A DNA stretch of 38,025 nucleotides from a virus. A program made the translations under genes and the position numbers. The notes beneath the pieces are model-generated. The model searched no databases. It saw nothing but the letters and a program-made list of their open reading frames with translations, and was not told the DNA's origin. Each line of letters begins with the position of its first letter. Position 1 is the stretch's first letter. The stretch lies in the IMG/VR virus record IMGVR_UViG_3300030419_006576, positions 1 to 38,025 of that record; one strand, given 5' to 3'. Positions 35,402 to 38,025 of this stretch are shown piece after piece.

Positions 35402-35512
35402 ATGAGCGGTTTTATTCACAGATTATTTAATTTATTCAATTCCCAACATTGCTGTTGTTGCTGCGGATGCTGCGAGTGCATTGATTGCCTCGGAAAATGC
35501 AACGCTAGCTAA
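35402..35512 (+). CDS. Cysteine-rich mini-protein (36 aa)
   Basis: A complete frame from ATG 35402 to TAA 35510-35512 encodes 36 residues. The first 14 (MSGFIHRLFNLFNS) form a short amphipathic, possibly membrane-associating segment. Residues 17-33 hold ten cysteines (HCCCCCGCCECIDCLGKC). The strong GGAGG site and its neat fit between the primase stop and the next gene (14 bases before ATG 35527) support it as a real gene. Possible readings are metal binding (metallothionein-like), a redox or disulfide peptide, or acylation of cysteines at a membrane. I do not recognise a family. Confidence 0.65.
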   Translation: MSGFIHRLFNLFNSQHCCCCCGCCECIDCLGKCNAS

Positions 35513-35526
35513 AAAGGAAATAAAAA

Positions 35527-37188
35527 ATGTCGCTATCACGTACACAAATTAGAAAGATTATTCGAGAAGAACTTAAACAAATACGCAAAGTTCAACACCC
35601 TGTCCTGCGAAAATCCAAATGCACAGTTTACTTAAAGGAATCAAATGGCGCTCTGAAGCCAGTTTCATTTAATTCTGTTCTCAAGCAGCAGAAAAAAGGT
35701 GTCTTTAGTGAACAACAAGTTCGCGATATTTTAGAATCTTCTTTTAACCATGACATGCGTATGTTTAATTGTTACAGTACTGCTTACACAAATTTAAGCC
35801 AACATATGATTTCTGAAGGTCTTATCACTGAGGGTGGAAAAGTTACCAAGAAAGGGCGCATTTTAGAAAAGAAAGAAAGAGGCACGGTCTTGGCCGAAAG
35901 TGACATGCGAAAGTATGCCGCTAGTCTTATTTTGGAGCAAGAGGAAGAAGAAATCGATGTCGAGGCCATCAAAACCACAGGGCAGAAAGCCGCCGGCGCA
36001 ATTGGCAAAGGTTTAAAGGCCATTGGAGGCGTTTTGGCCACCCCCTTTAAAGCTTGGAAATGGTTCAAAGATAAGGTTTGGGAAGCCATTAAAGGTGCCC
36101 TTTCAAAAGTCGGCCAAGCAATTGCGGCTTTTGGGGACAAATATAATATTGGATTGATCCAGCAAGTTACAGAATGGATTAAAGCGGCTTTTGGAGCCGT
36201 TGCTAAATTTTGCGGCAAGAACAAATGGACAAAAATTCTATGTGGTGTAGTTGCCTCTGTTTGTATCAGCCTTCTTGTAAAAGCTGCTATAGCTACAGTC
36301 GTGGCCCAATGCGGCCTTTCGATGAGCAGCATGGTCATGACCTGGGCAGGTGGCTGCGCCGCAGGTGCAGCAGGATTGACAGAAAACAATTCGGACGAAG
36401 AACCAGTGCTGCAAGAGGCTGTGAGTGAAATTTGCAAAGCCGCAGCAGAGGCTGGCTCCCATGCTACCAATGGGATGTTGAATAGTATCAAAGGCGCCCT
36501 TAAACTGATGGCAGCAAAGGGAGAAATTGCAGACGCTGCTCAGCTAGACTCTGCTTTAAACTTTGTTGATAAATATGAAGAAGTGTTAGAAGCGAGAATA
36601 ACAGCGTCTACGTCAGGCGCAGAAGTTTTAGGACAGGCAACTGGCGGTGCCTGGGCTAGCCCAGGAACAACTAAAATACTAGAAGACTTTATGGATGTGG
36701 CTGATAGTTGTACCAGCCAAGGTTCCAAGCTCGCCCAATCTGCCTTGGGCAAAGCAATAAAGATGACTGACTACAACTTCGAGGAATCTGCTTCGGAGAT
36801 AACAAAAAACCTCATAGCCTTGGGCGAAGAGGGTGCCAACGTGAAAGAAAGTCAAACATATATAGCGCTCGCAAAAATTGTTCGGGCTGGTGGGATGAAA
36901 GCCGAGGAAGCTCAAAAACTAGCAGAAACTTTGGGAGGGCAATTGGGATATGATACCTCTCCAGCATGGTCTAAGGCAGCGAAGGCAGCCAAAGAAGCAG
37001 CCAAAGCAGCCGGCGAAGGCGGTATGGATTTTGCGTCAGGTCTAAAAGCTAAAATTGAGGCTGGGCAGGCTAGCGCAGAAGAGATTGCAAAGTATAAAGA
37101 AATGACGGACCTTGAGGCCGCCAATCGAGCCCGTCAGGCTATAAAAGAAAACCTTAACCGAATGAGACAATTAGCAGGAGTACTCTAA
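35527..37188 (+). CDS. Putative head-internal or ejected protein with targeting peptide and membrane helices (553 aa)
   Basis: The product is 553 residues; AAGGAAA precedes ATG 35527. It opens with MSLSRTQIRKIIREEL, a variant of the N-terminal peptide of the next three genes, with I12-R13-E14 at the same place. More (I/L)-x-E triplets occur at L122-A-E124 and L136-E-type sites near 135-137, before an acidic run EQEEEEID; these could be cleavage points. Residues 150-230 are amphipathic, Ala/Lys/Trp-containing helices. About 237-284 are hydrophobic (ILCGVVASVCISLLVKAAI and a Gly/Ala-rich segment) and could cross a membrane. The C-terminal half is Ala-rich and helical, ending in RMRQLAGVL, a tail I recall from marine phage proteins. 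An ejected pore-type or head-core protein is the inference. Its stop overlaps the next ATG. Confidence 0.55.
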   Translation: MSLSRTQIRKIIREELKQIRKVQHPVLRKSKCTVYLKESNGALKPVSFNSVLKQQKKGVFSEQQVRDILESSFNHDMRMFNCYSTAYTNLSQHMISEGLITEGGKVTKKGRILEKKERGTVLAESDMRKYAASLILEQEEEEIDVEAIKTTGQKAAGAIGKGLKAIGGVLATPFKAWKWFKDKVWEAIKGALSKVGQAIAAFGDKYNIGLIQQVTEWIKAAFGAVAKFCGKNKWTKILCGVVASVCISLLVKAAIATVVAQCGLSMSSMVMTWAGGCAAGAAGLTENNSDEEPVLQEAVSEICKAAAEAGSHATNGMLNSIKGALKLMAAKGEIADAAQLDSALNFVDKYEEVLEARITASTSGAEVLGQATGGAWASPGTTKILEDFMDVADSCTSQGSKLAQSALGKAIKMTDYNFEESASEITKNLIALGEEGANVKESQTYIALAKIVRAGGMKAEEAQKLAETLGGQLGYDTSPAWSKAAKAAKEAAKAAGEGGMDFASGLKAKIEAGQASAEEIAKYKEMTDLEAANRARQAIKENLNRMRQLAGVL

Positions 37189-37517
37189 TGAAACTGACAA
37201 AAACACAACTTAAACAGATTATTAAGGAAGAGCTTAATAAGGTGTTGAAAGAGAACTATGGGCGACACCGTGGCGGCGTGTATGGCACCGGCCCTGATCG
37301 CCCAGTAGATACAAGTGGCGTAGATTTAAGTGAACCTTCTCTTGAACATGCACTAGTAGATAAAGCCATTGCCGCACTTGAGGAAGACGAAAGTGCAGAC
37401 TATAGTTGGGTTGTGGATGAGTTGGAAAAACTAGACCCCAAACAAGAAAATGATGAGGTTGCGATTAATGCTATTTTAGATGCCCAACTTGGAATGACAT
37501 TGGAAGAATTATTATAA
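37188..37517 (+). CDS. Small acidic protein with shared N-terminal targeting-like peptide (109 aa)
   Basis: The product is 109 residues. The N-terminus MKLTKTQLKQIIKEEL is shared almost exactly with the next two genes, and the likeness to the next one continues to residue 24 (KVLKENY here, KVLKEYY there). It contains I12-K13-E14 and L20-K21-E22. The rest is acidic and helical (ALVDKAIAALEEDES, DYSWVVDELEKL, LGMTLEELL) with a Gly-rich loop (GRHRGGVYGTGP). ATG 37188 and the stop at 37517 overlap the flanking genes by one base each. No known domain was recognised. By analogy with T4 internal proteins it could be packaged in the head; this is inference. Confidence 0.6.
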   Translation: MKLTKTQLKQIIKEELNKVLKENYGRHRGGVYGTGPDRPVDTSGVDLSEPSLEHALVDKAIAALEEDESADYSWVVDELEKLDPKQENDEVAINAILDAQLGMTLEELL

Positions 37518-37888
37518 TGAAACTTACAAAATCAAAACTCAAACAAATCATTAAAGAAGAGACTACAAAGGTCTTAAAAGAATACTACGATGAGTTCGAC
37601 AGCCATAGAGATATTGAACATAGAGAAGAAACAGAAGCCCACCAGGAAACCATGGCTAAAGAGGAGAAACTTCAGGCCGTGTTGCTCGACAAAATGCCGG
37701 AGCTAAAAGATCAGATGTCGGACGACAAGTTGGGCAGGTTGGTATCAACGATTCTGAACCATTCCGGTCTAGACCCCTTCGTTGACAATAACCAGGAAAA
37801 GCTAATAGACATGGCGTATACTTTAGCATGGGAGACGTCAGATGACAGTCCCGACTCTTGGAAAAGAGAACTTGAAATATACTTTTAG
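37517..37888 (+). CDS. Small acidic protein with shared N-terminal targeting-like peptide (123 aa)
   Basis: The product is 123 residues, starting MKLTKSKLKQIIKEE followed by TTKVLKEYY, parallel to the previous gene over 24 residues. After that the two diverge: here a His/Glu-rich charged stretch (DSHRDIEHREETEAHQ), then helices (LQAVLLDKMPELKDQM, DKLGRLVSTILNHSG, KLIDMAYTLAWETSD). The pattern of one conserved leader on unrelated bodies suggests a functional tag. TAATG coupling links it to the gene before. No family was recognised for the body. Confidence 0.6.
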   Translation: MKLTKSKLKQIIKEETTKVLKEYYDEFDSHRDIEHREETEAHQETMAKEEKLQAVLLDKMPELKDQMSDDKLGRLVSTILNHSGLDPFVDNNQEKLIDMAYTLAWETSDDSPDSWKRELEIYF

Positions 37889-37903
37889 GGAAAAAGATTT
37901 AGT

Positions 37904-38025
37904 ATGAAACTTACAAAAACAAAACTTAAACAAATGATCAGAGAGCAACTAGAGGAAGGTCTTGGGGATGCTTATGTTAATTGGATGAACAAGAATTTTC
38001 CTGGCGAAGATGAGCCTGAGTGGGA
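37904..38025 (+). CDS. Third MKLTK-leader protein, cut by the window end (partial)
   Basis: ATG 37904 begins MKLTKTKLKQMIREQLEEGL, the same leader with M11 and I12-R13-E14. Forty codons are visible before the right edge, without a stop. The start lies 15 bases after the previous stop, with a weak purine-rich site (GGGAAAAAGA). The body begins DAYVNWMNKNFPGEDEPEW. It shows that the series of tagged genes continues beyond the window. Confidence 0.6.
   Translation, partial: MKLTKTKLKQMIREQLEEGLGDAYVNWMNKNFPGEDEPEW

Follow-up and report, generated by a model that had tools for sequence, protein, structure and literature searches.

The question raised by this locus was why four consecutive ORFs, whose bodies are unrelated, begin with one and the same N-terminal peptide, and what that peptide does. 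The ORFs lie at the right end of the window, i.e. the whole stretch of DNA analysed here, a virus record of 38,025 bases. The preliminary description had read the peptide as a head-targeting and cleavage tag. This reading was supported by the sequence analysis, and the shared peptide is likely (probability about 0.83) to be a removable prohead-targeting signal, with core binding, cutting, packaging and delivery all being inferred.

The four N-termini (Table 1) had the motif M-(K/S)-L-(T/S)-(K/R)-x-x-(L/I)-x-x-(I/M)-I-(K/R)-E in common, with I12-x-E14 at the identical position in all of them. Within the window alone, there were four pairs of N-termini with 7 or more of 15 residues in common, where 0.44 pairs were expected (maximum of 3 in 200 shuffles). 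Proteins 2 and 3 were identical at 19 of their first 24 residues, L20-K-E22 included, and the nucleotides of their tags differed at 4, 2 and 10 sites at codon positions 1, 2 and 3, respectively. Hence the earlier claims of a shared motif with a fixed I12-x-E14, and of a likeness of these two proteins up to residue 24 with a second L-x-E at residues 20-22, held. The claim that codon differences were mostly at third positions held for pairs among the last three ORFs and failed for pairs with protein 1 (e.g. 14, 8 and 12 differences). The first three tagged genes were joined by TAATG overlaps and are therefore probably translationally coupled, as inferred from sequence alone. No usable match was obtained for the three complete tagged proteins of the window in Pfam or PHROGs searches.

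Table 1. Tagged ORFs at the right end of the window and loci carrying the LAG-type module (window positions unless a locus is named; cut sites are predictions)
Feature	Position	Strand	Description
Tagged protein 1	35527..37188	+	553 aa, ATG start; tag, hydrophobic middle, scaffold-like C-terminus
Protein 1 tag, residues 1-16	35527..35574	+	MSLSRTQIRKIIREEL; possible cut after E14 (or at YLKE38/S)
Protein 1 C-terminal module	37150..37185	+	NLNRMRQLAGVL; behind I-K-E541; same type as scaffold protein C-terminus
Tagged protein 2	37188..37517	+	109 aa, ATG start; N-terminus MKLTKTQLKQIIKEEL
Protein 2 tag and second site	37188..37253	+	MKLTKTQLKQIIKEELNKVLKE; predicted cut after E22
Tagged protein 3	37517..37888	+	123 aa, ATG start; N-terminus MKLTKSKLKQIIKEET
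Protein 3 tag and second site	37517..37582	+	MKLTKSKLKQIIKEETTKVLKE; predicted cut after E22
Tagged protein 4	37904..38025	+	ATG start; N-terminus MKLTKTKLKQMIREQL; truncated by window end
Protein 4 tag and second site	37904..37957	+	MKLTKTKLKQMIREQLEE; predicted cut after E18 (L-E-E/G) or E14
R(M/W/I)xxLAG(I/L) module	L121:977-2383		at C- or N-terminus beside I/L-x-E
R(M/W/I)xxLAG(I/L) module	L128:8399-10543		at C- or N-terminus beside I/L-x-E
R(M/W/I)xxLAG(I/L) module	L138:7848-9419		at C- or N-terminus beside I/L-x-E
R(M/W/I)xxLAG(I/L) module	L147:7093-9381		at C- or N-terminus beside I/L-x-E
R(M/W/I)xxLAG(I/L) module	L179:3632-4096		at C- or N-terminus beside I/L-x-E
R(M/W/I)xxLAG(I/L) module	L028:3290-3778		at C- or N-terminus beside I/L-x-E

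Most genes of the window were tail and baseplate genes, including those of gp25-like and gp6-like baseplate wedge proteins, and were followed by the genes of a RuvC-like resolvase and a DnaG-like primase and then by the tagged ORFs; no S77 gene was found in the 38,025-base window, which is a fragment. Only one relative of protein 1 was found (homologue L001:8233-10020, 45% identity in the best segment), and it was located on an 87.8 kb contig (G001) syntenic with the window. On G001 the homologue was followed by six further tagged ORFs, an SbcCD-like nuclease gene, other genes and two more tagged ORFs, the last two directly preceding the genes of terminase, portal, S77 protease, scaffold-like protein and major capsid protein; the protease, scaffold and capsid genes lay 15-21 kb downstream of tagged genes. 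The protease (G001:27053-27505, 27 kb into the contig; L003:6970-7569) exceeded the Pfam cut-off of its family (E 9e-30) and was 34% identical to T4 gp21 (E 9e-27), and by both measures belongs to peptidase family S77, that of T4 gp21. Given the synteny with G001, the window probably represents only part of a T4-type myovirus, with the head genes beyond its right edge, and an S77 gene would be expected some 15-20 kb or less downstream of 38025. A 36-residue cysteine-rich ORF (MSGFIHRLFNLFNSQHCCCCCGCCECIDCLGKCNAS) was also observed at 35402-35512, just ahead of the first tagged gene, with a near-identical counterpart at L001:8108-8218 in the relative.

The occurrence of the tag elsewhere was determined with a degenerate DNA pattern, by which at least 119 IMG/VR stretches were matched, and a control pattern with the codons in scrambled order gave no match in IMG/VR. 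Among 84,980 bacterial and archaeal genomes (GTDB, 257 Gb) there was a single match. It lay on a contig of 306 kb (NHDW01000006.1, L164; 305,838 bases) that had been assigned to a Methylococcaceae genome (MAG 'Methylococcaceae bacterium TMED69'); this contig carried S77 and a run of 16 tagged ORFs in 8 kb, and is almost certainly from a misbinned giant phage. Tagged ORFs were counted with a profile trained on the fetched loci, and 428 of them (408 distinct) were found in 1.19 Mb of fetched phage DNA, compared with none in a 1.07 Mb control of random IMG/VR sequence, retrieved by means of a random 14-mer. Tagged genes numbered four in the window (a fragment), 8-9 in G001 and 25 in G008, and the assembly behind NHDW01000006.1 gave 29 profile hits. 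The tag consensus was MKITKSQLKQIIKEEL. Information per position was about 3 bits at residues 14-15 and only about 0.5 at residue 17, and conservation did not extend beyond residue 16. Since the search pattern itself fixed many of the positions up to 15, the conservation there is in part built in; residues from 16 onwards were free. Nothing relevant to the motif letters was found in the literature searched.

N-terminal placement of the tag was shown by scanning all six frames with residue 1 left out of scoring, when 422 of 431 profile hits fell at a start codon and shuffled translations gave no hits. Four of the nine other hits lay inside proteins already bearing an N-terminal tag, and in two of these (of L114 and L026) the second copy lay no more than 7 residues from the C-terminus. 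These data bear on the explanation that what is repeated is a cassette at the DNA level (a start-site or recombination module) and not a signal in the peptide. In its favour, the tagged genes are short, arranged head to tail and interchangeable. Against it, tags within a contig differed mostly at third codon positions (0.26, 0.17 and 0.45 of codon positions 1, 2 and 3, respectively, with 67% residue identity), and the copies at C-termini, where there is no start site, suggest a constraint at the peptide level; this explanation is all but ruled out.

If the peptide is a removable signal, as we prefer to read it, the cutting site should be considered. T4 gp21 cleaves after L/I-x-E (PMC9026906). 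With few exceptions among 20 relatives, L-x-E stood at the end of the major capsid protein prodomain; in Flavobacterium phage vB_FspM_immuto (host Flavobacterium sp. LMO8) this end read I-V-S-E. I/L12-x-E14 was present in 93% of tags. Behind the tag, [IL]-x-E occurred in residues 17-28 of 189 of 379 tagged proteins, compared with 92 expected from column shuffles (z 14), and in 147 of 284 when one protein per family was used (73 expected), so that about half of the tags were without a second site there. The excess was replicated in 51 tags from other contigs (28 against 12.9 expected); it was not seen in residues 17-28 for [IL]E, [IL]xxE, [IL]xxxE, [IL]xD, [IL]xK, [IL]xQ or [VA]xE, and it turned into a deficit in residues 29-40 (26 against 43 expected). 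From residue 29 onwards, the ratio of [IL]xE to its mirror Ex[IL] was 0.70 (0.62-0.78) in tagged bodies, compared with 1.09 (1.05-1.13) in untagged ORFs of the same contigs; the drop was largest for [IL]xE and smaller for [VM]xE and [IL]xxE. Neither mature major capsid proteins (mirror ratio 1.05) nor scaffold proteins (1.15) avoided I/L-x-E.

The second site depended on residue 15. It was present in 175 of 312 proteins with Glu at this position and in only 4 of 41 with another residue (mostly Ala, then Val and Thr), with p values of 7e-9 for all proteins, 8e-6 for one protein per family and 0.014 for independent new tags; since residues 17-28 were unconstrained, the comparison is independent of the search pattern. 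In the simplest reading the two I/L-x-E sites would be alternatives, one good site being kept per protein. The preliminary description, which expected N-termini at residue 15 or 23, is refined: the cut is probably not uniform and would occur after E14 when residue 15 is Ala, Val, Thr or Ser, and otherwise usually after a Glu at 18-22, and for the tag peptide MKLTKTQLKQIIKEELNKVLKENYGRH a cut after E22 is predicted. Enrichment behind the tag, avoidance in the bodies and dependence on residue 15 were shown statistically and together support, as an inference, removal by the S77 prohead protease. Several points count against it: most tags have Glu at residue 15, where the junctions in T4 and in the capsid proteins are E/A and E/S; about half of the tags are without the second site; mature major capsid proteins do not avoid I/L-x-E although they too encounter the protease; and the bodies are also somewhat low in [VM]xE and [IL]xxE. 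The same statistics bear on a second alternative, an uncut docking helix which holds proteins on the scaffold or the shell. The strong amphipathic pattern speaks for it, and I12-x-E14 could be mere helix periodicity. It is nevertheless very unlikely, a floating but exactly spaced second I/L-x-E, body avoidance and residue-15 dependence not being expected of a helix that stays uncut.

The removable-signal reading takes the protease to be of the gp21 type. Such an S77 gene, absent from the window as a fragment, was present in G001 and in 31 of 49 tagged contigs of at least 30 kb, compared with 3 of 31 random contigs of that size (p 2e-6). In the 30-100 kb class the counts were 17 of 33 tagged and 0 of 28 random contigs; the class above 200 kb was uninformative, all three random contigs there also carrying S77. 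No S78 was found among the 49 tagged contigs. The 18 S77-negative tagged contigs had no intact head module: with the window added (19), none had a major capsid match, 17 had no portal match, and in the remaining two the portal was at the contig end. For this reason they were rejected as uninformative counterexamples, the head module being missing or cut off.

The link between tag and S77 was thereby shown statistically, and it may in part reflect the common descent of these phages. A third alternative holds that the peptide is an address to somewhere else (membrane, replication site or phage compartment) and is tied to S77 by common descent only. In its support, tagged genes were mostly not beside head genes, nearness of the tag to the protease gene being weak (nearest-tag test, p 0.026), and S77 phages without a tag exist. 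However, the cut-site statistics fit the I/L-x-E specificity of S77 (PMC9026906), and this alternative is regarded as very improbable. Among named phages, a tblastn search with the 22-residue tag found only one uncultured 484 kb phage, and the profile was therefore used instead. It gave no hits in T4, KVP40, P-SSM2, HTVC008M, S-PM2, S-TIM5 or phiM12 and one weak hit in CP220; no tag was found in the isolate Mel-JY01, which is close by its protease. The isolate vB_FspM_immuto carried S77 and one tagged protein (immuto35A_190, MKKSQLRQIIKEALDASTPAPNEIPGG...), whose trimmed N-terminus is predicted at Ala13 (ALDASTPAPNEIPGG...). Among the phages examined, the tag thus marks a part of the S77 phages and not all of them.

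Three separate observations were also made. The S77 of a 484 kb uncultured phage (LR756508.1:156507-158102, the record behind L172) appeared as two halves in open frames of 576 residues separated by about 1 kb, a pattern that an insertion within it (intein or intron) would give. Two consecutive major capsid protein genes were present in a 242 kb phage (L154:14111-17966). In immuto35A_199 (L174:4877-5959), the letters FIAEAR near residues 21-26 are those at which the targeting peptide of T4 IPII/IPIII is cut.

The tagged proteins had a median length of 111 aa. With the first 22 residues removed, 379 proteins fell into about 284 families (241 singletons). The net charge of the body was negative in 69% (median -4). 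Most bodies had no domain match; the domains recognized were L,D-transpeptidase (YkuD; L089), GNAT acetyltransferase (L023), AAA_33 kinase-like (L055), leucine-rich repeats (L095), pentapeptide repeats and DUF6321. The recognized domain began behind the tag in the YkuD and AAA_33 proteins, and the best GNAT match began at residue 10, overlapping the tag.

The bodies bear on a fourth alternative, namely that the tag is carried by fillers of the prohead core (like T4 gp67/gp68 or gp22), which are chopped by the protease and cleared rather than retained as cargo. Two observations favour it. Firstly, about 20 contigs had a conserved gene of about 140 aa directly behind the protease (L003:7570-8001 and equivalents in L126-L154), whose tag-like start MKKSDLKxLIKPLVKECIxEVLIEEG contains LVKECIxEVLIEE, which hhalign matched to IIKEELxKVLNEE in the tag (P 8e-6, probability 84%); L129 had a tagged gene at this position instead. 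Secondly, protein 1 had 14 I/L-x-E sites and a scaffold-like C-terminus. Against it, tagged bodies as a class avoid I/L-x-E and scaffold proteins do not (ratios as above), and some bodies have enzyme-like domains (YkuD, GNAT, AAA_33). This alternative is considered unlikely, and the reading of a removable signal on retained proteins is preferred. It remains possible that the tag was derived from the N-terminus of a core protein, an inference only. In many contigs the 140 aa gene was followed by a small basic gene resembling ribosomal protein S21, as it is annotated in Mel-JY01.

For protein 1 the packaged-cargo reading of the preliminary description is refined, because its many I/L-x-E sites and its scaffold-like C-terminus make it look more like a prohead-core protein than simple cargo, as far as can be judged from sequence alone. 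Several sites were common to protein 1 and its homologue (YLKE/S, MISE/G, LI(T/A)E, VL(A/V)E/S and LILE/Q). Protein 1 ended in IKE-NLNRMRQLAGVL, containing RMRQLAGVL, and the homologue in LQE-NFNRIQRLAGVLA. In many contigs an R(M/W/L)xxLAGI ending was also seen on the scaffold-like protein encoded ahead of the capsid gene, as well as on proteins of 470-760 aa adjoining the protease, where I/L-x-E immediately preceded it. In immuto35A_187 and L028:3290 the module was at the N-terminus and was followed by I-T-E or I-S-E. The strict-pattern ending was found in 8 of 1735 genes of at least 100 aa, compared with 0.1 expected, and all eight were scaffold-like proteins or homologues of protein 1; searched by sequence, the module gave no match to any named family. 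On these few sequences, the LAGI/LAGV ending is possibly a second removable address module derived from the scaffold. T4 Alt is trimmed at both ends (PMC9026906), and by analogy protein 1, with the tag in front and the scaffold-like module behind I-K-E at its end, would likely be a core or internal head protein trimmed likewise, again judged from few sequences. An AlphaFold model of protein 1 was unusable (pLDDT 42).

The closest parallel is the capsid-targeting sequence of T4 (IPI, IPII, IPIII and Alt), which is likewise a short N-terminal peptide on unrelated proteins, beside I/L-x-E and with a gp21-type protease. By this analogy the tag would work as the T4 sequence does, although homology was not shown: the T4 sequence MKTYQEFIAEA is unlike the tag and the tag profile had no hits in T4. 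The supposed likeness to T4 is therefore refined to a functional parallel, without homology as far as tested. The peptide is 10-19 residues long in T4 and about 14-22 in the tagged phages; the number of tagged genes per genome (up to about 25-29) and the variety of bodies go beyond T4; and the bodies are mostly acidic (median -4), unlike the basic T4 internal proteins IPI-III. The head-core genes of T4 (gp22 scaffold, gp67/gp68) lie beside the protease gene as in the tagged phages, but T4 gp22 is without the LAGI end which protein 1 shares with the scaffold of these phages. In phiKZ and SPN3US, internal ejected proteins bear N-terminal propeptides that are removed by the prohead protease, and the first 15 residues of SPN3US gp53 and gp54 are identical (PMC5694885). 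In having several internal proteins with an N-terminal propeptide these phages are like the tag system; they differ in having S80 and A/S-x-E sites where the tagged phages have S77 and I/L-x-E, and in the tagged phages one 16-residue tag stands on hundreds of families.

Sequence statistics show the tag, its position at the N-terminus, the signal for cutting and the S77 link; the mechanism proposed next is an inference. The amphipathic helix M-K-I/L-T-K-x-Q-L-K-Q-I-I-K-E-E-L would attach to the prohead core, so that each tagged protein would end up within the shell as it assembles. The gp21-type S77 protease would cut behind I/L-x-E, at I12-x-E14 if residue 15 is small or uncharged and at the second I/L-x-E (about residues 18-22) if it is Glu, and the freed body, which avoids the protease site, would remain in the head. 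Delivery of the body into the host would follow; this is the least certain step, and the balance tips only slightly in its favour. No tagged protein is known in a virion, no proteomics of a tag-bearing phage having been found, and packaging and injection remain inferred. A bolder reading, which as a whole we would back by a narrow margin, is that a widespread set of uncultured S77 phages has two removable address modules which can replace one another, namely the IIKEE tag and the scaffold-derived R(M/W)xxLAG(I/V) at either end. With these, the capsid would be loaded with large, fast-changing effector-like sets (L,D-transpeptidase, acetyltransferase, kinase-like, leucine-rich and pentapeptide-repeat proteins) for delivery to the host, as an arsenal several times that of T4.

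If the removable-signal reading is true, the first 22 residues would suffice to list the proteins carried in the heads of these phages, and hundreds of families formerly called 'hypothetical proteins' would become new candidates for early host takeover and counter-defence. It would also suggest that cargo is exchanged in T4-type phages by swapping the body behind a fixed tag, and capsids could be loaded with proteins by means of a new targeting peptide. The sequence-only test used here (a site enriched at the tag and avoided in the body) could find cargo tags in other phages. The tag would thus give a route to listing candidate proteins that a large group of uncultured phages carry and perhaps inject.
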